A stretch of 38,812 nucleotides of DNA. Origin: a virus. Positions 4,656 through 38,812 of the stretch are shown here, in pieces (the stretch's first letter is position 1; every line of letters begins with the position of its first letter). The translations under genes were made by a program, and so were the position numbers. The stretch is from positions 1 through 38,812 of the IMG/VR virus record IMGVR_UViG_3300019926_000031; one strand, 5' to 3'. The notes beneath the pieces were generated by a model. The model saw only the letters and a program-made list of their open reading frames with translations, was not told the DNA's origin and searched no databases.

Positions 4656-4751
4656 CTATACGTCTGTCTTCCGGCCACAACTGGGACAGGTTGCTCGCTT
4701 AAGATCGCCTGAGTAATCCCAGTTATAGCCACACTTGTCACACTCGTTCAT
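4656..4751 (-). CDS. Zinc-ribbon microprotein, 31 aa
   Basis: MNECDKCGYNWDYSGDLKRATCPSCGRKT: two CxxCG knuckles separated by 15 residues form a rubredoxin-like zinc ribbon. This type of tiny protein is common in haloarchaeal genomes. The start overlaps the stop of the RNA ligase gene (TAATG at 4750-4753), so both are one transcript. Confidence 0.65.
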   Translation of the reverse strand: MNECDKCGYNWDYSGDLKRATCPSCGRKTDV

Positions 4752-5440
4752 TAGTGACGTTCACCGTCGTACCAGTCAAACATATCCCGCCGTAGTTTGG
4801 CAAAATAGTTGGAACGTGGCGGCTTGTCTGCCGACCACGCACGCGGCACTTCGGGCGACGTGAACATGATACCTTCGCAAAATGTTCCGTTAGACACCGA
4901 AGCCTCATCTAAAGATGCACCGTGCATCTTGGAGTAAAAGAGGCTGAATAGGTCATCTTCAAACCAGCCGCTAATGGTGTCAAAGTCTTGTGGGTATTCC
5001 CCCCAACTATTATAACTACACTTTTGCCGGAGCCATTCAAACGGGATAAATAACAGTTCGTCTAGTTCGTGGTTGTTGCCGTTAATCTTCGGCCCAACCG
5101 TTTCGCCAAAGTGATATCCCTCTGCAAGCCCATCAGTATAGCCACGGGTAACAGAGTTTTGGACAGCCCGAGCAATCCGCTGGTGCATGGTTGACCCATA
5201 CGGTTCAACCCAATTCATTGACTTATTACCGGCACGGGCAAAGGCGTCAACAACTTCACCGTTTTCAACATAGATGGCACAGTTAGTCCCGTCTAGTTTT
5301 TCAACGGCTTGCCACTCGGTGAATTGTAGCAATTCGCTGTTCCGATTATCATACACGACATAATCACCATCCTCGTTTTCATGCCGTTCAAATGGCGATT
5401 CAATCTTCGGGAATCTTGGCGGGACGCTTGGCGCTTGCAT
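4751..5440 (-). CDS. RNA ligase, Rnl2-like nucleotidyltransferase, 229 aa
   Basis: The nucleotidyltransferase motifs appear in order: motif I EKLDGTN with the nucleotide-accepting Lys at residue 48; an Ia-like ARAGNKS at 69-75; motif III GYHFGETVG at 108-116; a IIIa-like FIPFEWLR at 131-138; motif IV FCEGIMF at 187-193; motif V KLRRD at 215-219. This fits the RNA ligase family that repairs nicked RNA by adenylation. The protein is short, so any C-terminal domain beyond the catalytic core is minimal. I chose the ATG at 5440; a longer frame would add an implausible hydrophobic Val run. The gene forms a leftward island with a zinc ribbon, divergent from an HNH gene. Together with the viral tRNA-Leu, repair of cleaved tRNA is an attractive inference. 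Confidence 0.85.
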   Translation of the reverse strand: MQAPSVPPRFPKIESPFERHENEDGDYVVYDNRNSELLQFTEWQAVEKLDGTNCAIYVENGEVVDAFARAGNKSMNWVEPYGSTMHQRIARAVQNSVTRGYTDGLAEGYHFGETVGPKINGNNHELDELLFIPFEWLRQKCSYNSWGEYPQDFDTISGWFEDDLFSLFYSKMHGASLDEASVSNGTFCEGIMFTSPEVPRAWSADKPPRSNYFAKLRRDMFDWYDGERH

Positions 5441-5447
5441 TGCAAAT

Positions 5448-5466
5448 ACTACTACCACTACTACCA
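5448..5466. repeat. ACTAC-repeat tract upstream of RNA ligase
   Basis: Repeats of ACTACTACC lie directly before the RNA ligase start (reading GTAGTAGTGGTAGTAGT on the coding strand). A much longer ACTAC tract lies at 6825-6884 before the RHH protein gene. A TATA-like TTTTACA (minus strand, near 5470-5476) is about 30 bases before the ligase start. The repeats may be binding sites for one regulator. Confidence 0.5.
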
Positions 5467-5548
5467 ATGTAAAAGTTGGGGATTGTAACCCAATCAATAC
5501 CTTTTTGGCTATGCGTGTTCTTAGATATAACTACGCAGTTGCACGCCA

Positions 5549-5582: not shown

Positions 5583-5634
5583 ATATCCACCACCTTGAGT
5601 GTTGGGTTTGAGCGGTGCCTGCGAAGGCAAAATC

Positions 5635-6252
5635 ATGACCGAAATCACAGTCCGCTGCGATAGGTGTGGCAGAGAATTTGGATCAAATCGTGCGCTTAGT
5701 ATTCACAAGACCACCGGCCATGACAAACCATATAGAGAGGAAGAAAGCCTGAAAAGGTTATACTATGAGGAGGGTTTGACTCAAAAACAGATAGCCGAGA
5801 AGTTTGATGTCCACCGGCAAACAATAGCAAACGCAATTGAAGATTTGGGGATTGAGAAAAAAGATAGGTATGAAATTCTAGCAGGGATGCTAAGAGAGGA
5901 ATACGCCACATTCTACCAAAATGAGAAAGGGTATGAAAAGTGGAGTACAGAGAATGGTGAAGTCTATCTCCACCGCTTAATCTGTGTTGCAGAGTACGGG
6001 TTTGACGCCATCCGGGATAATCACGTCCATCATAAGAACGGCATAAGGTGGGATAACAGAGTGGAGAATCTTGAGGTACTATCGGCTAAAGAACACATTC
6101 AAATGCACCATCAAAAGTTGAGTCAACGCGAGTATGAAGAAATCAGGGAAAGGGCAGAATTGGAGGATGTGACCCACAAAGAGTTAGCAAACGAGTACGG
6201 TATTGACGAATCAAACGTGACGAGGACCATCAACAATGAATCTAACTGTTAA
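5635..6252 (+). CDS. C2H2-HTH-HNH-HTH endonuclease, 205 aa
   Basis: Domains in order: a C2H2 zinc finger (VRCDRCGREF then SIHKTTGH, residues 6-28); a helix-turn-helix (LTQKQIAEKFDVHRQTIANAI); an HNH_3 nuclease (HRLICVAEYGF, then HVHHKNGIRWDNRVENL, then EHIQMHH); and a second HTH at the C-terminus (THKELANEYGIDESNVTRTI). It is the longest of three paralogues sharing the HTH-HNH core (others at 1649 and 27953). I chose the ATG at 5635; a GTG at 5599 would add 12 residues. Likely a free-standing homing endonuclease. It shares 17 bases of overlap with the next gene. Confidence 0.83.
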   Translation: MTEITVRCDRCGREFGSNRALSIHKTTGHDKPYREEESLKRLYYEEGLTQKQIAEKFDVHRQTIANAIEDLGIEKKDRYEILAGMLREEYATFYQNEKGYEKWSTENGEVYLHRLICVAEYGFDAIRDNHVHHKNGIRWDNRVENLEVLSAKEHIQMHHQKLSQREYEEIRERAELEDVTHKELANEYGIDESNVTRTINNESNC

Positions 6253-6379
6253 ATGCCGAAACTGTGACAGTCTTGTAGAGCTAATCAGACGACCAGATCG
6301 AACGCTAGCACTCCGATGTGACTGCCCTGAACAACGGAGCATTAGAGTGCAACGGAAAATGCCGGAGGGATGGGAATGA
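6236..6379 (+). CDS. Zinc-ribbon protein, 47 aa
   Basis: KCRNC at residues 6-10 and RCDC at 27-30 make a small zinc-binding site. It starts inside the end of the HNH gene (17-base overlap) and its stop overlaps the next start by ATGA. Function unknown. Confidence 0.6.
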   Translation: MNLTVKCRNCDSLVELIRRPDRTLALRCDCPEQRSIRVQRKMPEGWE

Positions 6380-6822
6380 GTGAATACAGAGACAAGGCCG
6401 ATACAAGCCGGTGTTACTTCTGTCCCAAGCGGAACGACATTGAGGTGCATCATATTGTTCCGCAACGCTTCAACGGGAGCGACAGTCGGGAGAACCTTGT
6501 TGCATTGTGCGACCGTTGCCACAGGAAGATTGAAGCGCTATACGACAAGCGGTTCTATGAGAGGCTCGGCATAGCCGATGAAACCGGCGACCGGAAGGCG
6601 CACTTTGAGTGTGTGGGTCAAGACTGTCAACAGCGGGCGCAAGTGCGTCTCAAGAACGAAGCGGGATTCCCACGGTGGAATTGTTTGGATTGTGCTACCC
6701 GCACAGCTACCAGAACGGAGATCACAATCATAGAAGACATGACAGACAAGTTCCAGAGTCGGCTTGAGTGGGTCGAAACGGCGAAAGCCCATAACAAACT
6801 CAAGTCCACAAGCTTGTACTGA
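6376..6822 (+). CDS. HNH endonuclease with zinc knuckles, 148 aa
   Basis: A classical HNH domain with structural zinc: CYFCPKRNDIEVHHIVP, then GSDSRENLVALCDRCHRKIE. The CxxC ... CxxC pairs hold zinc and HH-N-H is the metal-binding catalytic set. The second half has another Cys pair (ECVGQDC ... NCLDC), likely a further zinc ribbon for DNA binding. This family differs from the three HTH-HNH paralogues. The start at 6376 is coupled to the previous stop; an ATG at 6370 with the same ribosome site (GGAGGG) is possible. Role may be homing, or a nicking enzyme in packaging or replication; context does not decide. Confidence 0.8.
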   Translation: MSEYRDKADTSRCYFCPKRNDIEVHHIVPQRFNGSDSRENLVALCDRCHRKIEALYDKRFYERLGIADETGDRKAHFECVGQDCQQRAQVRLKNEAGFPRWNCLDCATRTATRTEITIIEDMTDKFQSRLEWVETAKAHNKLKSTSLY

Positions 6823-6884: not shown

Positions 6885-7286
6885 ATGAGCAAAGAACGAA
6901 TCTCTGCCTCAGTTGACCCGGAAGTTGATGCGTACCTCTCACGAGAAACGGTTAACGCGTCAGGACTAATCAACCAGCTCGTGAAACAGCAAATGTCTGC
7001 GGGAGACGACAGCAAGCAACTCCTACAACTCCGGTTGGAACAAATCAACTCGGAAATTGACCGCCACGAGTCGCAGCTTGAGACGCTTGAGAAAGAGCGT
7101 GAAGGCGTCAAGAAACGGCTTGAGAAAATCAAAGAGGAAGAACACGGCCAACGTCAAAAAACGCTTGAGAGGCTTGAGACAGTCCCGTGGAAAGAAGACA
7201 ATCCTGCAATCAAGACGAATGCAGAAGACTTGGGTATGGAACCACACGAACTGATTAACGAACTGGAGGATTACCATGCTGAGTGA
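6885..7286 (+). CDS. Ribbon-helix-helix protein with long coiled coil, 133 aa
   Basis: Residues 3-40 (ERISASVDPEVDAYLSRETVNASGLINQLVKQ) match the ribbon-helix-helix pattern: a strand with alternating polar residues followed by two helices. Residues 45-100 form a charged coiled coil rich in Glu, Lys, Leu and Gln. The C-terminal 30 residues are a separate helical tail. Probably a dimeric DNA-binding repressor that binds the repeats in front of its own gene. Its end overlaps the start of the MCM relic by 11 bases, so the two belong to one transcript and may be functionally linked. Confidence 0.75.
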   Translation: MSKERISASVDPEVDAYLSRETVNASGLINQLVKQQMSAGDDSKQLLQLRLEQINSEIDRHESQLETLEKEREGVKKRLEKIKEEEHGQRQKTLERLETVPWKEDNPAIKTNAEDLGMEPHELINELEDYHAE

Positions 7287-8497
7287 ATCAGAGTCAGACG
7301 CGCTACACGCGTTCGTTCGCAACTACTGTGAGAACGAAGTAGCAGAGCTATGCAAGAAATGGCCACCAAGTGATTGAATTAGCAGCACTGCCCGAAGACA
7401 CTGGTGGGCAGACACCAGACAAAATCAAGGTTGAAGTGACAAACGACCTTGCTGGAACAGTCTCAGCAGGGGACCGTGTTGAGATATCTGGTGTGCTGAA
7501 AACTGAAACCGAAGACTTACACACAAAGCAGAACCCAGACATTCGCCGGCCTATCTACCTTGAAGGGCGTGCGATACAGAACGAACAAGAGAGTTTCGCG
7601 GAGATTGAGCCGTCCCGGATCGATGAAATCAAGGAGTTAGCAGGTGAGCCTGACATTTACCAACAACTCATAGACTCCTTTGCACCACACATTTACACAA
7701 CGGAACAAGGCGACCGTCAGAAACTCGCTATCATTCTGGCGTTGTTCGGTGGGGTACAGAAACAACTCCCAACAGGATCACAGATTCGAGGGAACATCAA
7801 CGTCTTACTTATTGGGGACGGCGGGACAGCAAAAAGCCAGTTCCTCAAGACAGCAGAAAAACTTGCACCGAAAAGCGTGCTTGCATCCGGGAAAGGAGCA
7901 ACAGCAGCAGGACTTACTGCTACGGCAGAACAGTCAAACCTCACGGGAGAATGGTCACTCAAGGCTGGCGCATTGGTCATGGCCGACCTACTGAGAGAAT
8001 ACATCGCCTATGCACGGCAAAAAGAGCCAACGTATGCGTCCGAAGATGTGAAACAGCGGCTCATAAGCTACTATGTTGACCTTCGGGAACAATCCGAAGA
8101 CGGCGATGAACCCGGACCACGACACAATGACAGCCTGCGGCGACTGGCTCAGGCAAGTGCCAGAGTGCGACTGTCCGAAGACATAGAAATGGAAGATGCA
8201 GAACGGGCCATAGATATGTTCAAGTTCACGGTCGGGCAAGTCGGACTTGACGAAGACGGGAACGTAAGCGGGAACCAACTCAATGGCGGCAAGCGAACCG
8301 ACAAATCGCAAGAAGACTGTATTGAGAATGTGCAAGAGGCAATCAGGCAGTTAGAAGGCGATAATCCGGCAAGGATAGATGAGATAAAGGACAGACTCAC
8401 AGGCATCAAGGACAAGAAGATTGAGTATGAGATACAGAAACTCAAGCAACAGGGAGAAATCTATGAGCCACGAACAGACAAATTCCGGGTGAGCTAA
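7276..8497 (+). pseudogene. mcm: MCM replicative helicase with two internal losses
   Basis: The first 33 codons (7276-7377; MLSESESDALHAFVRNYCEN...) match the usual MCM N-terminus, then stop at TGA. From 7370, in another frame with a possible GTG start, the reading resumes as VIELAALPEDTGGQTPD, which in intact archaeal MCMs lies well over 100 residues further on. The AAA+ part follows: IRGNINVLLIGD, Walker A GDGGTAKS (usually GDPGTAKS) at residues 149-156 of the second frame, then SLKAGALVMAD. At 7985 this jumps directly to LLREYIAYARQ, so the roughly 120 residues carrying Walker B, sensor 1 and the arginine finger are missing, in frame. The sensor 2 helices and C-terminal winged helix are intact. 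Such a protein cannot be an active helicase. It may be a decaying gene, a regulatory relic or an assembly of a deleted subpopulation. Confidence 0.8.
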
Positions 8498-8499
8498 CA

Positions 8500-8973
8500 A
8501 TGCCAACAGAAAATACTACACTCAAACGAGTGCATGAATTTACAGGTGCATGGCGTTGGCCGGAAGATGTAGAGCGGTTTATTAGAGATGAGTGCAACGG
8601 GAAATGCTTACACGTATGTTGTGGGAAGTCTGACTTAGGGGATGTGACGTTAGATGCTGATGCAGGCAATAGCCCCGATATAGCTGGAGATATGACGGAA
8701 TTGCCCTTTAGAGATTGCGAGTTTGACACTGTGATAGCTGACCCCCCGTGGAAATCTGTCGATATATTTGATAGACATGGTATGTTTTATGAGTTAGTTA
8801 GAGTCACAAAACGGCAAGGAAAAATAATCCATAACGCTACATGGGTCCCCGAAAGTGAGCAATGCGAAAAACTCGCAGAATACAGGCGGCAAGATATATC
8901 GTTCGGTGATGCAAGCATTATCAGCATCTTTGAACGGTGGAAAGATCAAACCAGCTTAGAAAAATATCAATAA
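8500..8973 (+). CDS. SAM-dependent methyltransferase with DPPW motif, 157 aa
   Basis: The core reads CLHVCCGKSDLGDVTLDAD (SAM-binding strand and acidic residue) followed by FDTVIADPPW at residues 75-84. DPPW is the catalytic motif IV of amino-methyltransferases that modify adenine N6 or cytosine N4. The protein is short and lacks a clear target-recognition domain, as often in viral orphan enzymes. It follows the MCM relic by 2 bases and is coupled by TAATG to the next methyltransferase. Likely protects viral DNA from host restriction. Confidence 0.75.
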   Translation: MPTENTTLKRVHEFTGAWRWPEDVERFIRDECNGKCLHVCCGKSDLGDVTLDADAGNSPDIAGDMTELPFRDCEFDTVIADPPWKSVDIFDRHGMFYELVRVTKRQGKIIHNATWVPESEQCEKLAEYRRQDISFGDASIISIFERWKDQTSLEKYQ

Positions 8974-9605
8974 TGGTAAGCACACACCAGAGTAACACAG
9001 GCGATATGAACATCCTACACTGTTTCGCAGATGAGGGAATTGAATCGGAAGCATTAGCGGCATATGGCGATGTGACAAGAGTAGGGCTAGACCCACAAGA
9101 CACACCATACACTAGAACACTCATTCAAGCAGATGCGCGAGAAGTGAACTTCAACCAAGAGTTTGACTTGGGGCTGTTCCATCCACCATGTCAGCGTTGG
9201 GCGGTCGGATCATACACTAGCGGCGACCCAAAAGACAGACATGATAATCTCATTCCAGTGGCGCGAGAGATAGCACAAGAACACTGCAAGAACTGGATAA
9301 TCGAAAATGTCCCACAAGCACCACTCAAAGATCCAGTGTTCTTGGATGGGCGTATGTTCGGAAGCCCATTGGTCTATGAGCGGGCATTTGAGACGAACTA
9401 TCACGTACCACAACCACCACGGCAAAAGACGTTTGCTCAAGTGAGCGAGGGAATACAGACCCATCATGAAAACGGTGGATTCCAAGGATCAAAACAAGAA
9501 TGGAAGTCTCTCAAAGGGTATACTGGAGAATATAATAGCCGGAGCTTAAAGCGCGAAGCAATCCCAAGAGCATACATTAACTACCTAATCAGACCACTCC
9601 TATAA
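8973..9605 (+). CDS. DNA cytosine-5 methyltransferase, short viral type, 210 aa
   Basis: Motif I-like MNILHCFADEGIESEALAAYG starts at residue 12; motif IV HPPCQRW holds the catalytic Cys at residue 73; motif VI IIENVP holds the Glu at 111. The C-terminal YNSRSLKREAIPRAYINYLI corresponds to the closing motif X-like segment. The first 11 residues (MVSTHQSNTGD) precede the normal start of the fold and are nearly repeated at the start of the next gene. The start chosen overlaps the previous stop (TAATG); an internal ATG at 9006 is the alternative. The recognition domain is reduced compared with bacterial enzymes. Confidence 0.82.
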   Translation: MVSTHQSNTGDMNILHCFADEGIESEALAAYGDVTRVGLDPQDTPYTRTLIQADAREVNFNQEFDLGLFHPPCQRWAVGSYTSGDPKDRHDNLIPVAREIAQEHCKNWIIENVPQAPLKDPVFLDGRMFGSPLVYERAFETNYHVPQPPRQKTFAQVSEGIQTHHENGGFQGSKQEWKSLKGYTGEYNSRSLKREAIPRAYINYLIRPLL

Positions 9606-9823
9606 TGGTTAGTAAACACCAGAGTAACACAGGCGGGAACAGCTATGATAGTGAGGCAGGACGCTTCCTCTCTAGTGAGAACGACGTAAATCCAATCCCA
9701 GTAATCAGGGGGATACGGAAGTATGATCGAGCACTTTCGTACCACCAAGAGGCACACAAACGCGACGTGGATGCAGAAATCAAGAAAGCGATAGCGAGGA
9801 AACTGCAGGAGTTAGATGGATGA
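9605..9823 (+). CDS. Small hypothetical protein sharing the MVSxHQSNTG leader, 72 aa
   Basis: Begins MVSKHQSNTGG, almost the same as the first 11 residues of the cytosine methyltransferase gene before it; 20 bases are identical in the DNA. The rest is polar and helical (IRGIRKYDRALSYHQEAHKRDVDAEIKKAIARKL). Coupled on both sides (TAATG upstream, ATGA downstream), so it is sandwiched between two methyltransferases. Function unknown; perhaps an accessory of them. Confidence 0.6.
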   Translation: MVSKHQSNTGGNSYDSEAGRFLSSENDVNPIPVIRGIRKYDRALSYHQEAHKRDVDAEIKKAIARKLQELDG

Positions 9824-25150: not shown

Positions 25151-25995
25151 TGCCTATTGAACAGCGAGATGTTCCGGTTCAGCCGGAGACGATTCTTCGA
25201 GAGGTTCAGGAGCGAACGCAGCCAACCTACCAGTTCCGCGAAGCATTCCGGGACTTTGACGCAAGTGATCAGGACGCCGAGGAACTCAAGTTCCCGGTCC
25301 CAGACGACGACCTTGAAGGCCACGTTGTTGAGATTGACGAAGGCTCTGATTTCCCGCGTTCGGAACTCAACTATTCGGAAGTCTCTGCGGTCCGACAGAA
25401 GTACGGCTTTGAGGTTGTCATTACCGATGAGGCTGTTCGGTTTGGCCGTGTAGATATCGAAATGGAGAGTCAGGAGGAAATGGCTCGCGCGGCCACCAAG
25501 AACCTTGACCAGCGGGCATTCAACCTGCTGGATAGCAACAATAACGGCACTGTCGTTGGCAACGACGGCGAAGACCTTGACTTTGAGGCTGTTGTTGAAG
25601 CCTACGAGGTGCTGAACGCTGGTGAATACGACCTTGGACAGACTGGAATGCTTGCCGGCACGGATGCTGTCCGTGACCTGAGCCTTGACGACTCGTTTAA
25701 TCGGGCAACCGAACTCGGTGATAGTCTCGTTACCGACCAAGGGCCGGAGGTTATTGGTGAGATATATAATATCCCGGTTATGCGGACCAATACCGGGGAC
25801 TTTGGCGACGATGAAGCGTTCATGGTCGACATGAGCAAGTACGGCTACCTTGCCGAGTGGGAACCCATGTCGGTCAACACGTACCGCGAGGAATCCAACC
25901 AGCAGACCGTCTATCAGATTAGCGGTCACAATGGCTTTGCTGTCACTGACGCTGACGCCTGTGTCAAACTACAGGGCGGAACTAGTGGAGCATAG
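25150..25995 (+). CDS. Major capsid protein, HK97 fold, 281 aa
   Basis: The fold is recognisable by context and by strands such as LKFPVPDDDLEGHVVEIDEG and RQKYGFEVVITDEAVRFGRVDIEME, followed by the long helix region and P-domain strands IPVMRTNTGDFG and MVDMSKYGYLAEWEPMSV. It lies directly after protease and decoration genes and before a gap with a hairpin, the normal place. Strongly acidic, as expected for a haloarchaeal virus. No intein or insertion is seen. Confidence 0.85.
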   Translation: MPIEQRDVPVQPETILREVQERTQPTYQFREAFRDFDASDQDAEELKFPVPDDDLEGHVVEIDEGSDFPRSELNYSEVSAVRQKYGFEVVITDEAVRFGRVDIEMESQEEMARAATKNLDQRAFNLLDSNNNGTVVGNDGEDLDFEAVVEAYEVLNAGEYDLGQTGMLAGTDAVRDLSLDDSFNRATELGDSLVTDQGPEVIGEIYNIPVMRTNTGDFGDDEAFMVDMSKYGYLAEWEPMSVNTYREESNQQTVYQISGHNGFAVTDADACVKLQGGTSGA

Positions 25996-25996
25996 A

Positions 25997-26051
25997 GCGG
26001 CTATACTCGGTGATTAGGGTGGTCTGACTATCCTAATCATAAGCGGCTATA
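25997..26051. terminator. Hairpin flanked by direct repeats after the capsid gene
   Basis: TGATTAGG (26011-26018) and CCTAATCA (26032-26039) are exact inverted repeats, and the 9-base direct repeat GCGGCTATA occurs on both sides (25997-26005 and 26043-26051), 46 bases apart. It begins just after the capsid stop at 25995. The hairpin may attenuate transcription so that the capsid gene is expressed more than the next; the repeats could also be an operator for a second promoter, since the following ATG at 26059 is close. Confidence 0.55.
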
Positions 26052-26058
26052 GTCACCC

Positions 26059-26415
26059 ATGTCAACAGCCACACCACAACAGGTAACCAACGTCATATCA
26101 ACTGACCTTAGCGACAGTCAAATCCAAAGTTACCTTGATGACGTAACTTTTGAAGCCGAACAGGCGATAGACAAATACCAAAGTAAACTCTCCACAGAAG
26201 CGAAGGAACAGTTAGAGAAATATCTTGCCGCGCTGAGAATCCGGCAGTGGAGAGATAAAGGCATCAGTAGCACATCCAGAGAGACGGCAAGTGTGACCTA
26301 CGAGGGGATGGGTATAGAAGCGCTTAAGAAGGCTGTTGACAAACGCGATCCAAGCGGGACGTTAGCCTTCCAGACGGACACAGACAGATACACAGGAGTT
26401 GCAAGCCATGACTAA
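26059..26415 (+). CDS. Head-tail connector, HK97 gp6-like, 118 aa
   Basis: A helical protein with TDLSDSQIQSYLDDVTFEAEQAID and QLEKYLAALRIRQWRDKG, close to the gp6/gp15-like adaptor pattern of helices (first helix placing, then a tract before the tail). The C-terminal part is predicted strand and loop. It is the first gene after the capsid, the standard position of the adaptor ring that joins portal to neck. Overlaps the next gene by 8 bases. Confidence 0.75.
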   Translation: MSTATPQQVTNVISTDLSDSQIQSYLDDVTFEAEQAIDKYQSKLSTEAKEQLEKYLAALRIRQWRDKGISSTSRETASVTYEGMGIEALKKAVDKRDPSGTLAFQTDTDRYTGVASHD

Positions 26416-26641
26416 AGCACGTTGTACGCGAGGATTTGGAATAGTCACTGACCCAGAAACGGGTGAGGAAATCAACGTTGAAGGGGAATTTGAGACGACA
26501 GCGGAACAGTTTGAACGCCTTGATGCGGCATACTCCGGGATGGAAATTATTGAATCGGATGATAGTTGCGCGCATGGGGATTGCAGCCGGACTGTGACGG
26601 ATAGTAAATACTGCTGGCAACACCCAACCGATGACAACTAA
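26408..26641 (+). CDS. Small Cys/His protein in the neck region, 77 aa
   Basis: Beta-like start (CTRGFGIVTDPETGEEINVEGEFETT) and a C-terminal zinc site SCAHGDCSRTVTDSKYCWQH (C-x-x-x-x-C ... C-x-x-H). Position between connector and membrane protein. Function unknown; might be a small neck protein. The ATG at 26408 overlaps the previous gene by 8 bases. Confidence 0.6.
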   Translation: MTKARCTRGFGIVTDPETGEEINVEGEFETTAEQFERLDAAYSGMEIIESDDSCAHGDCSRTVTDSKYCWQHPTDDN

Positions 26642-26912
26642 CAAACGCCCGTGGTACTGCGACGGGGAGCTGATTAATGAATACAAACACGCAACTCAAA
26701 GTTTAGCGATGCATAAAGCCCTCAAGATAACAAAGAGCATTATCGTTAACCTTGGCTTGATTATAATCACGCTCTATGGGCTTCGGCTGGGGGCTAGCCC
26801 ATCGCGCATTGTCCCCCTATCGTTGCTTATCCTTGCAGCCTTCAACGGTGTCGAATATTCAGAAATCCAGAGTTTGAAACAGGCAATCACTGAGTCTAAC
26901 GATAAAGACTAA
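26631..26912 (+). CDS. Two-span membrane protein, 93 aa
   Basis: Two hydrophobic segments (IIVNLGLIIITLYGLRL and IVPLSLLILAAFNGV) in a charged protein. A holin is conceivable because of the size and number of spans. It lies in the head-tail part of the operon directly before the 366-base non-coding stretch. Overlaps the previous gene by 11 bases. Confidence 0.65.
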   Translation: MTTNKRPWYCDGELINEYKHATQSLAMHKALKITKSIIVNLGLIIITLYGLRLGASPSRIVPLSLLILAAFNGVEYSEIQSLKQAITESNDKD

Positions 26913-26938
26913 GTGGCAGTATCCCGTTGTCTTAGGTG

Positions 26939-27018
26939 GCTACGAACTGGTGGTAAAACACCTTCGGATAGCCGTGTAACGTCGCCGCGAGGTAGCGAGG
27001 ACGCACAACCACTGGTTG
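26939..27018 (+). ncRNA. Candidate structured RNA: three abutting hairpins
   Basis: Hairpin 1 (26939-26974): GGCTA pairs with TAGCC, GAA with TTC, and GGTG with CACC around GTAAAA. Hairpin 2 (26975-27007): GTG pairs with CAC, CGTC with GACG, and CGC with GCG. Hairpin 3 (27008-27018): AACC pairs with GGTT around ACT. They follow each other without gaps, and TATCCCG near 26920 can pair imperfectly with CGGGCATA near 27056 to close the whole. No coding frame of normal composition is present. The stretch lies between a membrane protein gene and tRNA-Leu, within 26913-27072. Family unknown; it might be processed together with the tRNA. Confidence 0.45.
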
Positions 27019-27072
27019 CCTGTGACCTATCTCGTTTAGGGTGTCTGTCTCTATCGGGCATAGTTTGTTTTT

Positions 27073-27155
27073 GCATCCGTAGCCAAGTAGCCAACGGCAA
27101 CCGGCTTAAGACCGGTCCCTAAGTGGGTACCACGGTGCAAATCCGTGCGGATGCA
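27073..27155 (+). tRNA. tRNA-Leu, anticodon TAA
   Basis: The acceptor arm GCATCCG/CGGATGC is a perfect 7-bp stem with discriminator A at 27155. The D arm is closed by GCC/GGC; the anticodon arm is ACCGG-CTTAAGA-CCGGT with anticodon TAA; a long variable arm (CCC/GGG stem) marks a class II tRNA; the T arm is CACGG-TGCAAAT-CCGTG. CCA is not encoded. It reads UUA codons, which are rare in GC-rich haloarchaea but frequent in this virus (TTA is common in many of its genes). It lies on the sense strand of the virion operon. Confidence 0.95.
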
Positions 27156-27158
27156 TAT

Positions 27159-27180
27159 GCTCAAGATGCAAGCCTTGAGC
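27159..27180 (+). other. 7-bp hairpin just after the tRNA
   Basis: GCTCAAG (27159-27165) pairs with CTTGAGC (27174-27180) around an 8-base loop. It starts 4 bases after the tRNA end, so it may shape 3' processing of the tRNA or belong to a longer structured transcript. Confidence 0.5.
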
Positions 27181-27190
27181 GACGGCAAGA

Positions 27191-27259
27191 CGGTTTTGTG
27201 GGATACTAGTAATCCACATGAGACGGCATTAGTGTACACGCCGAAACCGGACAAAACCG
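27191..27259. repeat. Nested inverted repeats downstream of tRNA-Leu
   Basis: CGGTTTTGT (27191-27199) and ACAAAACCG (27251-27259) are perfect 9-bp inverted repeats. Between them a near-perfect 22-bp palindrome (27197-27218) has arms TGTGG and CCACA around core TACTAGTA, and CGGC (27224-27227) pairs with GCCG (27240-27243). As RNA this forms a three-way junction; as DNA the palindrome could be a protein binding or recombination site. The stretch from 27156 to 27278 has no gene. Confidence 0.5.
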
Positions 27260-27278
27260 AGCGATTATACAACTCACA

Positions 27279-27509
27279 ATGAGTGATAACAATCCATATC
27301 CCGATGAACCAGAACTGTTTGATGAGGAAGGCGATAGCATGGCCTTTGGCGTGGGTTTAGGCGACGGTTTCAAACGACTGAAGCCGCTACCGGGCCGATA
27401 CAAGAGTGCCAAGGCAAACCCGTACTACTACTATCCGGGCTTTATCATCGGCTATCTCCTGAAGGCGCTTGGAGTAGCATTGCTAGCATACGCTGGTGTT
27501 CAGGTGTGA
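27279..27509 (+). CDS. Small protein with C-terminal membrane segment, 76 aa
   Basis: The N-terminal half is acidic and Pro-rich (NNPYPDEPELFDEEGD); the C-terminal segment FIIGYLLKALGVALLAYAGV is hydrophobic and could span a membrane. It is coupled by GTGA to the next gene. It restarts the virion operon after the non-coding stretch. Function unknown. Confidence 0.6.
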   Translation: MSDNNPYPDEPELFDEEGDSMAFGVGLGDGFKRLKPLPGRYKSAKANPYYYYPGFIIGYLLKALGVALLAYAGVQV

Positions 27510-27931: not shown

Positions 27932-28665
27932 CCTTGGCACATATATACGCGCGTGCCGAACCAATATAGCGACCCACAACCGTACCAAGACAAAGAAACT
28001 CTTGAGCGGCTATACCATGATGAAGGTATGACCGCAAAAGAGATCGGAGAACATTTTGACGTTTCGCAAGCTACAATCTCCCGCTGGCTTGATCGGAGGG
28101 ATGTAGAAACCAAGACATCCGCTGAAAAGCGAGAGGAACGAGGAACACACCACCGCCCAGTTAAAGAAGGTCCGCACACTGATGAGGAATGGCTTCGTGA
28201 ATGTTACTTTGGCCGGAAAATGTCAATTACTGAAATGGCAGATGAAGCCGGTCTGAAAAGCGAAGTGTCGATCATGAGACAGATGGATCGGTATGGTATT
28301 GACCGACGGCCGAACTACGTGACAAGGGTTTTGCGCGATCCGGGTGCTGGGTTTGTCCATGCAGATGCATATGGATACGAAATTATCAGGCATTCTGTGG
28401 ACGACCAAATCCAGTACTACAAACACCACCGGCTTATTGCGATGGCAGAGCATGGAATCGAGGAAGTGAAACAGAAACACATCCACCACAAGAATAACAT
28501 TCCATGGGACAACCGACCGGAGAACCTACAACTTGTTGATGGGAACAAAGAACATGCACAATATCACAAAGACGAGTGGGGTGGACAAGGCCGTCCCAAT
28601 GCACCAAGAGACGAAGACACGGGGCGGTTCACAGGGTAGCAACATCCAAGCAGTGAGGATTAACT
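27923..28665. mobile_element. HNH homing cassette between 7-bp direct repeats
   Basis: ATTAACT occurs at 27923-27929 and at 28659-28665. If the unit 27930-28665 (736 bases) is removed, the sequence reads ATT-AAC-TGATGAGC, so the gp10-like gene would stop at TGA overlapping the next ATG exactly, the coupling seen throughout the operon. The cassette holds only one HNH gene. This fits insertion of a homing endonuclease gene between two coupled genes. Confidence 0.6.
27953..28639 (+). CDS. HTH-HNH homing endonuclease inserted in the virion operon, 228 aa
   Basis: The first domain (LERLYHDEGMTAKEIGEHFDVSQATISRWLDRR) is an HTH, a second helical HTH-like region follows (KMSITEMADEAGLKSEVSIMRQMDRYG), and the HNH core is HHRLIAMAEHGIEE, then HIHHKNNIPWDNRPENLQ, then KEHAQYHKDEW. 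The protein is related to those at 1649 and 5635. It begins at GTG 27953, preceded by an ATATATAC tract between inverted repeats GGCAC/GTGCC (27936-27940 and 27953-27957). Likely mobile, not virion-related; its position interrupts the order of neck and tail genes. Confidence 0.85.
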   Translation: MPNQYSDPQPYQDKETLERLYHDEGMTAKEIGEHFDVSQATISRWLDRRDVETKTSAEKREERGTHHRPVKEGPHTDEEWLRECYFGRKMSITEMADEAGLKSEVSIMRQMDRYGIDRRPNYVTRVLRDPGAGFVHADAYGYEIIRHSVDDQIQYYKHHRLIAMAEHGIEEVKQKHIHHKNNIPWDNRPENLQLVDGNKEHAQYHKDEWGGQGRPNAPRDEDTGRFTG

Positions 28666-28666
28666 G

Positions 28667-29080
28667 ATGAGCAAGTTTGATAGGGTCCGGAGTGGCTTTA
28701 AACGAGCGCATGACGACCTGTTTGATGCGCCGTTTGATGCCGAGTTTGTCAACACAACACAGGGGAGTTACGACCCAAACACAGGCGAGATAACCGGGAG
28801 TACCGAAACCTCACTCGGAACGATAGCCGTCGAGATAGTCCCACCAGCGATGGACACCACAGTTGATGTAAGTGGTACGAGTTTCAGTTGGGACACCAGC
28901 ATTCGCTTCCCGGAAGATAAGCAACCCGGCGATTTGGTCCCCTTAGGAGAGGATAGCAGAGAGCCGACACAGGTTATCATAACTGACCCAGAGGAAGGAA
29001 GCACAGACACGTATGAACTACACGGATACTCCTACGAAAAGGGTTCTGGCATGATAATGTGCCGGTTAGTAGAGCAATAA
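28667..29080 (+). CDS. Putative head closure or minor tail protein, 137 aa
   Basis: A beta-rich acidic protein (AEFVNTTQGSYDPNTGEITGSTETSLGTIAVEIVPPA) with further strands to the end. Size and position between gp10-like and tail terminator-like genes match the head closure protein of siphoviruses (gp16/gp7-type). GAGGATT upstream may act as a ribosome site. No strict motif identifies it. Confidence 0.6.
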   Translation: MSKFDRVRSGFKRAHDDLFDAPFDAEFVNTTQGSYDPNTGEITGSTETSLGTIAVEIVPPAMDTTVDVSGTSFSWDTSIRFPEDKQPGDLVPLGEDSREPTQVIITDPEEGSTDTYELHGYSYEKGSGMIMCRLVEQ

Positions 29081-29086
29081 TGTAAA

Positions 29087-29620
29087 ATGCCACAGAAAGT
29101 AATAGAGCCATTAGAGGCACAGATACGGCAGTATTTGGTTGACAATATCAGACCTGCCGAAATGCACGGGTATGACCCACAACAGACTGACCCAACGGCG
29201 GGTGACTTCCTCCCAATCTCAAATGATTGGTCGGATTACGGGGATACATACCCTGTAATTGTTGTCCAAGAGAACAACGGGCCAACAATCCCGAACAGTG
29301 GAAACACGAACGTAAACGGTATCCAAGGCGATGGGTCCGGCACCAATCAAACGGCTGTCCATCCGATCACAATCAGTGTGCAAGCCACACAGGACGGTGA
29401 CTATTTAAACAATGTAGACTACCAAACCCTCGTAACGGATATCTATGCAGAGTGTCGGTTTCAACTCAAAGACATTGACGCGGTGGATGAAGCACTCTAC
29501 ACGGGTGATTTGACACCACCAACGCAAACACGAAGCAATGAGGAAACGGACAGTGGCAGTACAGTGACGTGGCTCCAAAGACAAGGGACTGTTCCCGTAG
29601 GATTCCGGTACACACCATAA
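29087..29620 (+). CDS. Putative tail terminator protein, 177 aa
   Basis: The protein starts with a helix (PLEAQIRQYLVDN), followed by TYPVIVVQENNGPTIPN and ITISVQATQDGDYLNNVDYQTLVTDIYAEC, a strand-helix pattern like gpU-type tail terminators. Its place just before the tail tube gene supports this. It lies 6 bases after the previous gene and overlaps the next by TAATG. Confidence 0.55.
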   Translation: MPQKVIEPLEAQIRQYLVDNIRPAEMHGYDPQQTDPTAGDFLPISNDWSDYGDTYPVIVVQENNGPTIPNSGNTNVNGIQGDGSGTNQTAVHPITISVQATQDGDYLNNVDYQTLVTDIYAECRFQLKDIDAVDEALYTGDLTPPTQTRSNEETDSGSTVTWLQRQGTVPVGFRYTP

Positions 29621-35417: not shown

Positions 35418-36036
35418 TAGAACAAAATATAGCGTAGAAACCCAGTCAAACGGCAACTTTGATGTAGAGTTCAACACGGCAGATTTGCATAGCCTCACAC
35501 GCGGAGATACAACAACCTTTGAGTTTTCGTTTCCGCACCCATCGGATGATTTGACAGTCGTTTCCGGAGAGACAAAGACGATCCCACAAGGACAAAGCAG
35601 ACTCTTTGATGAGATTGTGGTGGAATCGAATGCAGAGCTAATCATTGACGGGGAAGCTCAAGCCAACATTGTCACAAATGACGGGACAATAACAGTCAAC
35701 GGAGAGTTGCAAGTTGTTCCTGATGTGGTTGGAGTGTTGCGGCAGTTTGAGGATTATGCCGGTAGCTATGTTGAGCAAACGACTGTCAACGGCGTTGTCC
35801 GGTACCATGAGCAACTACCAGCACGGGCGGACGTGGACAGTCTTGTGATAAGTATCCGACCGTCACAGTTTCTGCGAGATAGAAACGTAACGGGTATCTG
35901 GTGTATCGTAGATAATGTAACCGACACACGGCCGTTAGCACTGTCAACATCGCGGTTTAGACTAGATGTGACAGTGTTAGCCGAGTTTGCACAGTTTGAC
36001 GACCATACCGACATTAACAACAACTTAGCACTATGA
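35410..36036 (+). CDS. Tail fibre/tip-associated beta protein, 208 aa
   Basis: The first part has a beta-helix-like repeat (TIPQGQSRLFDEIVVESNAELIIDGEAQANIVTNDGTITVNGELQVV); this run of short strands with N-G-x-L and T-I turns is seen in phage fibre and tip proteins. The rest contains strands leading to a C-terminal domain. The ATG at 35410 lies inside the end of the membrane protein gene; a GTG at 35401 would add three residues. Probably part of the receptor-binding tip. Confidence 0.6.
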   Translation: MSDRTKYSVETQSNGNFDVEFNTADLHSLTRGDTTTFEFSFPHPSDDLTVVSGETKTIPQGQSRLFDEIVVESNAELIIDGEAQANIVTNDGTITVNGELQVVPDVVGVLRQFEDYAGSYVEQTTVNGVVRYHEQLPARADVDSLVISIRPSQFLRDRNVTGIWCIVDNVTDTRPLALSTSRFRLDVTVLAEFAQFDDHTDINNNLAL

Positions 36037-36509
36037 CAATAAAACTTGACGAAGACAACATTACCGTCAGTCCAACGCAGATAGATGATACCGATAGTCC
36101 ATACCTGACAAATGGTGAACAGTACATCTATGTTGATACAACAGACGGCCCGGTCACAATCCAGTTAGCCTCAAGCGATACAGTCGATGGCGCTGAAATC
36201 AGGATTATAGACACCGGAGAGAGTGCAAGTGCCAACCCTATCACAATCCAGACTGAGGGAACAGAGAATATCAACCCCGGCAGTAATAGCAGTATCACGC
36301 TTACTGTTGATGGAACGTATGTTGATCTATTTAGCGACGGTAGTAATTGGTTTAGCGACAGAGCAGTTACATCGTTGTTTCATCAGCAACGATATCAGCC
36401 ATGTCCTTGGGCTTTGAGAGGGTTTGCACTTCTAAGACGACGTGGGCAGTATCTTCGCTGTCTTGCTTCTTGTGGACAACGCTATACGCCTCTAAGAGAC
36501 TGTCTATAG
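36033..36509 (+). CDS. Fibre-like beta-sandwich protein with questionable C-terminus, 158 aa
   Basis: Residues 20-112 form a fibre-type domain (YIYVDTTDGPVTIQLASSDT, IRIIDTGESASANPITIQTEG, ITLTVDGTYVDLFSDGSNWFSDR) like the one at 22120. After about residue 115 the composition changes to Arg/Cys/Trp-rich sequence with no similar pattern, and this last part is antisense to the leftward gene ending at 36367. The frame runs on for 143 bases into that gene. Either the protein really ends with this unusual tail or the 3' part of a longer fibre gene has been lost. Confidence 0.65.
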   Translation: MTIKLDEDNITVSPTQIDDTDSPYLTNGEQYIYVDTTDGPVTIQLASSDTVDGAEIRIIDTGESASANPITIQTEGTENINPGSNSSITLTVDGTYVDLFSDGSNWFSDRAVTSLFHQQRYQPCPWALRGFALLRRRGQYLRCLASCGQRYTPLRDCL

Positions 36510-36621
36510 GATAGCCGTTATCAACCCAGTAATTAAACACATCAAGCCAGAATTGCTCTGGCCGGCCTTCTACATCGCCTTGTCCGAACTGTTCCAAGTC
36601 TAATTCGGCTGTATGTATCAT
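36367..36621 (-). CDS. Hypothetical protein, 84 aa, last gene of the leftward operon
   Basis: An acidic helical protein with IHTAELDLEQFGQG, WLDVFNYWVDNGYP and an acidic C-terminus. Its composition is normal for a coding gene, unlike the antisense frame that overlaps it. Coupled by ATGA to the previous gene. Function unknown. Confidence 0.65.
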   Translation of the reverse strand: MIHTAELDLEQFGQGDVEGRPEQFWLDVFNYWVDNGYPIDSLLEAYSVVHKKQDSEDTAHVVLEVQTLSKPKDMADIVADETTM

Positions 36622-38612: not shown

Positions 38613-38812
38613 TAGTTGTCCTCCACATTTTCGTCCGCTCCGGGCTCGGAACCGGCAGCGGGTTTAGCTACCACAGATGCATATACGTCAAACTCCGACA
38701 TTGAACCCATGCCGGCTTGGTCTACCACTGTGAAGTGGTACGATTCCTTCAGTTGGTCGAATTGCTGTTCGGTAAACGCTCCGCTGAACGAACGGGCTTT
38801 GATTTCATCCAT
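38612..38812 (-). CDS. Hypothetical protein crossing the circular join, 66 aa
   Basis: Begins MDEIKARSFSGAFTEQQFDQL and ends SEPGADENVEDN. The first 33 codons lie in the terminal repeat, so they appear again at 1-99. Its ATG is two bases from the stop of the gene at 102-512, so it is the next gene of the leftward operon across the join. The tail shares an 18-base identical stretch with the gene at 509-676. Function unknown. Confidence 0.7.
   Translation of the reverse strand: MDEIKARSFSGAFTEQQFDQLKESYHFTVVDQAGMGSMSEFDVYASVVAKPAAGSEPGADENVEDN
38714..38812. repeat. Right copy of 99-base terminal direct repeat
   Basis: Identical to 1-99. Together with the continuity of the gene at 38612-38812 into the gene at 102-512, it shows that the two ends of the window join. 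Confidence 0.93.

Follow-up and report, generated by a model that had tools for sequence, protein, structure and literature searches.

The gene for an MCM helicase at positions 7276-8497 (+ strand) of the virus record IMGVR_UViG_3300019926_000031 has lost two segments, and its remainder lies in two different reading frames. This raises the question of whether the gene is a decaying relic, a retained non-catalytic protein, or the mark of a chimeric or defective genome. The window analysed is the whole record of 38,812 nt, from a tailed virus of salt-loving archaea related to HATV-3. Its ends carry an exact 99-bp repeat (positions 1-99, + strand, equal to 38714-38812), the overlap of a circular genome, which suggests a complete circle of 38,713 bp. 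In this mosaic genome, HATV-3-like genes (73-100% DNA identity in the alignable parts) are mixed with others, and the gene order is circularly permuted with respect to HATV-3. No match was found in it for the HATV-3 PCNA, its tailspike gp26, or several of its small genes. The counterparts of gp25 and gp27 abut at 29078-29087, where the tailspike gene that separates them in HATV-3 is missing.

The MCM gene begins with ORF1 (7276-7374, with a stop codon at 7375-7377, + strand), which encodes the N-terminal 33 codons of the protein. An ungapped alignment places residues LSESESDALHAFVRNYCENEVAELCKKWP at the start of the MCM from a Natrialba taiwanensis provirus, and none of 1000 shuffled sequences scored as high, while the profile match to MCM is weak (E 0.05). 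A GGAGG motif is located a few bases 5' of the ATG at 7276. The second reading frame, ORF2 (7370-8497, + strand), starts with a GTG that overlaps the stop codon of ORF1 and is shifted by +1 relative to it. Its 375 residues comprise the end of the OB domain, a partial AAA+ domain, the lid, and the winged helix (assigned by Pfam and alignments), and score 288.7 bits against NF040949 (cut-off 940) and 312 bits against phrog_10371. A 133-aa coiled-coil gene (6885-7286, + strand; phrog_37426) lies directly upstream and overlaps the MCM start. Its BLv36 counterpart (L013, 11300-11728; 32% identity to the DNA, tblastn E 2e-10) immediately precedes the MCM gene of that virus. Descent from the MCM family is thus supported both by homology and by gene position. 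The first-pass annotation had described this locus as an MCM with two internal losses, opening with a 33-codon N-terminus followed by a frame change, and the alignments, the Pfam matches, the shuffling result, and the +1 frame of ORF2 confirm this description in all essentials.

At junction 1 (7360-7372, + strand), the frame shifts by +1 and the N-terminal domain is shorter by about 145-160 codons, which correspond roughly to residues 34-178 of the Natrialba provirus MCM, the closest intact one. The leftovers of this domain, most of which is gone, are the 33 codons in another frame and the OB end (PF17207 positions 91-124 of 126, below the cut-off), so that the zinc motif and OB fold by which an active MCM helicase is recognised are not found in the remnant. 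Junction 2 (GALVMA/DLLREY, 7982-7987, with the break between 7984 and 7985, + strand) is an in-frame loss of about 110-130 codons. The MCM P-loop profile (PF00493) matches ORF2 residues 84-206 with only its positions 2-121 of 224, and the MCM_lid profile (PF17855) starts directly after, with residues 206-285 matching positions 1-84, i.e. from the first position. The same break is seen in pairwise alignments, where ORF2 is matched by residues 195-405 and 523-699 of the HATV-3 MCM (699 aa) and by residues 179-385 and 496-668 of the Natrialba provirus MCM (668 aa).

Three catalytic motifs of close relatives, Walker B (DEFDKM), sensor 1 (AAANP), and the arginine finger (SRFD), lie within the segment lost at junction 2. 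All three are absent from the remnant, as the first-pass annotation had proposed, and the profile of the missing segment gave no significant match in the six frames. The possibility that the lost segments are present elsewhere on the same molecule was also checked, and a six-frame profile search of the circularised genome found neither. Lacking these three elements, the remnant is not expected to hydrolyse ATP by the usual mechanism, in agreement with the earlier claim, and would be unable to act as an ATP-driven helicase. Insertion of an intein or intron is ruled out as the cause of the interruption, because sequence is missing rather than added.

The retained part includes the P-loop, with the Walker A motif GDGGTAKS at 7814-7837 (+ strand; sequence and alignments), and the AAA lid with the sensor-2 region (7985-8224, + strand; PF17855 E 1.8e-16, pLDDT mostly 86-98). 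The winged helix is nearly identical to the C-terminus of the HATV-3 MCM and is predicted with pLDDT of 93-95. The statement of the first-pass annotation that the sensor 2 region and winged helix are well kept holds for the lid and for the HATV-3-like C-terminus, whereas the Pfam match of the winged helix stays under the gathering score (20.6 versus 26.1 bits). In the AlphaFold model, the lid and winged helix show high confidence (pLDDT mostly >90), and residues 172-191 and 193-203, adjoining junction 2, have pLDDT <50. Foldseek retrieved MCM structures; the rmsd, about 11 Å across the full chain, is in keeping with a protein that lacks the centre of the core.

In respect to its 3' end, the gene has a different history from the remainder. 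The last 194 bp (8306-8499, + strand), which contain the winged helix, show 97.4% DNA identity to HATV-3, with only 5 differences (3 silent and 2 changing), too few for a selection test. Outside these 194 bp, the gene has diverged much further from HATV-3 and is closer to the Natrialba provirus and BLv36. Judged from these comparisons, the gene is a recombinant, with the exchange inside the gene. The HATV-3 MCM (gp67; Hatrivirus, Pyrstoviridae) thus shares the genome background and the 3' end with the remnant, but it is intact and shows only about 33% identity in the retained AAA+ half.

The other relatives are also intact. The MCM of the Natrialba provirus (L043/L123) shows 57% identity in the retained AAA+ half, and on its contig there is also a terminase with 53% identity to the one of this virus; unlike the remnant, this MCM is a full-length frame of 669 codons in which Walker B, sensor 1, and the arginine finger are all present. 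The BLv36 MCM (ORF22), with 44-48% identity and a similar small gene just upstream, is likewise intact (674 aa). The MCM proteins of eight named haloviruses are 674-728 aa long, and of 126 MCM frames from viral and archaeal loci nearly all exceed 500 aa, although the simple motif search missed the arginine finger in some of them. Shorter frames (L133, L148) still show motifs resembling Walker B, sensor 1, and the arginine finger. Related MCM frames are full length with the motifs kept, the exceptions being a few distant or clipped frames. The comparison of related viruses for the same junctions, suggested in the first-pass annotation, returned none that carries them among those examined.

Among the 391 haloarchaeal genomes searched, 389 gave an MCM match. 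None of the matches listed shares junction 2. They end at query residue 205-207 or resume at 201-206, and breaks at 201-207 are expected where the target has the middle segment. The two matches listed that ran past the junction (G364 and G341) are intact MCMs with an intein. An MCM without the core was thus met neither in the viral loci nor among the matches listed from the haloarchaeal genomes. Searches of the viral collection with the MCM and gp69 revealed no sister viruses beyond HATV-3 and more distant relatives, and a literature search pairing HATV-3 with MCM returned no paper. Detectable relatives of this MCM occur in only 14 records of the phage collection, and such a low number of MCM-bearing records is in line with an optional gene.

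A third deletion is observed elsewhere in the genome. At 36368, the stretch corresponding to HATV-3 25510-27318 is lost with sharp borders, and two convergent genes are hit at one point: a baseplate/fibre gene (HATV-3 gp36; 36033-36509, + strand), cut after residue 112 of 522, and its convergent neighbour (HATV-3 gp39; 36367-36621, - strand), cut at residue 84 of 132. Possible homology at the three junctions amounts to a few bases at most.

The locus is probably best described as a recently inactivated, dispensable MCM helicase gene that suffered deletions by short-homology or end-joining repair, with the host MCM acting as the substitute. Recent decay is favoured because two deletions are found in this gene and a third elsewhere, the relatives are intact, and a host MCM is nearly universal in the genomes searched. 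Essential parts are lost here that the relatives keep. The gene would make up about 5% of the genome, and it took two of the deletions. Two events of illegitimate repair would have deleted the bulk of the N-terminal domain and, at the second junction, the catalytic half of the AAA+ core; the first lesion may have relaxed the constraint, so that the second was tolerated. The helicase for viral replication would then be supplied by the host. The 375-codon frame would be mostly residual, and reinitiation at GTG 7370, which overlaps the ORF1 stop codon, may allow its translation.

Some observations stand against decay. ORF2 is free of stops and further frameshifts, and junction 2 is in frame (a chance of 1 in 3). 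The retained part deviates at 5 of the 44 conserved columns, compared with 6, 8, and 8 in the closest intact relatives. The confident prediction of the lid and winged helix also counts on this side. The open frame, the unraised decay, and the in-frame junction fit a very recent loss as well as a maintained remnant; recent loss, being the simplest account, is most likely. Decay was one of three readings offered in the first-pass annotation and is the best supported of them.

Another of these readings concerned the assembly. The word size of the assembler was probably ~99 bp, as indicated by the length of the overlap. The longest exact repeats in the MCM genes of intact relatives are 11-13 nt, the exception being a simple-sequence run at the start of the HFTV1 MCM. 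With an overlap of 99 bp and no long repeats in the relatives, collapse of repeats or a plain assembly error appears unlikely. It is conceivable, though on balance unlikely, that the junctions are amplification chimeras or belong to a dominant defective subpopulation, the MCM gene being whole in the actual virus. This would account for three abrupt truncations within a single contig, two of them in one gene, and loss of the fibre/baseplate C-terminus together with the lack of the HATV-3 tailspike is odd for an infectious virus. However, the overlap points to a long-word graph assembler, with which each junction should be supported by reads, the relatives have no repeats near 99 bp, and an intact sister contig was not found in the viral collection, from which near-identical records may have been left out.

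The remnant might instead be a retained non-catalytic MCM, in which the lid and winged helix (perhaps also the P-loop half) bind the host MCM or the origin, blocking host replication as a decoy or recruiting the host helicase as an adaptor. We consider this quite improbable. The open 375-codon frame and the in-frame junction 2 are compatible with it, and so are the conserved residues, lost without excess, and the well-predicted lid and winged helix; the GGAGG motif before ORF1 and the overlap of GTG and stop codon could couple translation. Yet ORF2 has no ribosome-binding motif of its own, residues 172-203 beside junction 2 are disordered in the model, the same architecture appears in no other genome (viral loci and the matches listed from haloarchaea), and the gene pair at 36368 is broken equally abruptly. 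Short haloarchaeal MCM homologues of 312-315 aa, which consist of the N-terminal domain only and cannot be helicases, have been described (PMC3972481), so that truncated non-catalytic MCMs are already known in haloarchaea. Like the remnant, these outliers are MCM-derived and non-helicase, and they occur beside an intact core MCM (PMC3972481), but their form is different: they keep the N-terminal domain, whereas the remnant lost it together with the centre of the core and keeps the lid and winged helix. The proposal that the virus maintains such a core-less MCM to act, without catalysis, on the replicative helicase of the host, either as decoy or as adaptor, is correspondingly doubtful, and no positive evidence was obtained for the dominant-negative or recruiting role put forward earlier.

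An intein may also have been involved indirectly. Inteins with active homing endonucleases occur in host MCM genes (PMC10643990), and in Haloferax target plasmids became shorter after cleavage by the MCM-d endonuclease, which was attributed to microhomology-mediated end joining (PMC10643990). If such an enzyme had cut the viral gene, end joining at microhomologies could have removed the segment, a route compatible with decay. The inteins of G364 and G341 lie between DELDKMR and SEDRSAM, inside the segment lost at junction 2 and about 14 codons downstream of its left edge, and this site matches the R/S position reported for MCM-d (PMC10643990). The viral relatives differ from the host sequence at the site, though, junction 1 and the 36368 deletion are off the intein sites, and no intein has been reported in six viral MCM homologues (PMC10643990). 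An intein origin of the second deletion is therefore speculative, and the route as a whole is very unlikely.

If recent decay is correct, the locus represents an early stage in the loss of a viral replicative helicase and supports the notion that haloarchaeal tailed viruses can dispense with such genes. In the case of the intein route, host MCM homing endonucleases could destroy a viral copy, and a remnant that works would be an MCM without catalytic activity that the virus turns against the host helicase or uses together with it.

Other features of the genome are worth mentioning. Four genes are related to the HNH endonucleases of HATV-3 (gp14, gp24, gp64), at 1649-2104, 5599-6252, 6370-6822, and 27953-28639, and two of them sit shortly upstream of the MCM gene. 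A 34-bp near-repeat (91%; 8970-9003 and 9602-9635) at the start of the gp68-like gene flanks an extra gene, which suggests an insertion that duplicated the start site. An RNA ligase-like gene is located at 4751-5497 (- strand), with PF09414 just over the cut-off and a weak match to the Rnl2 family.
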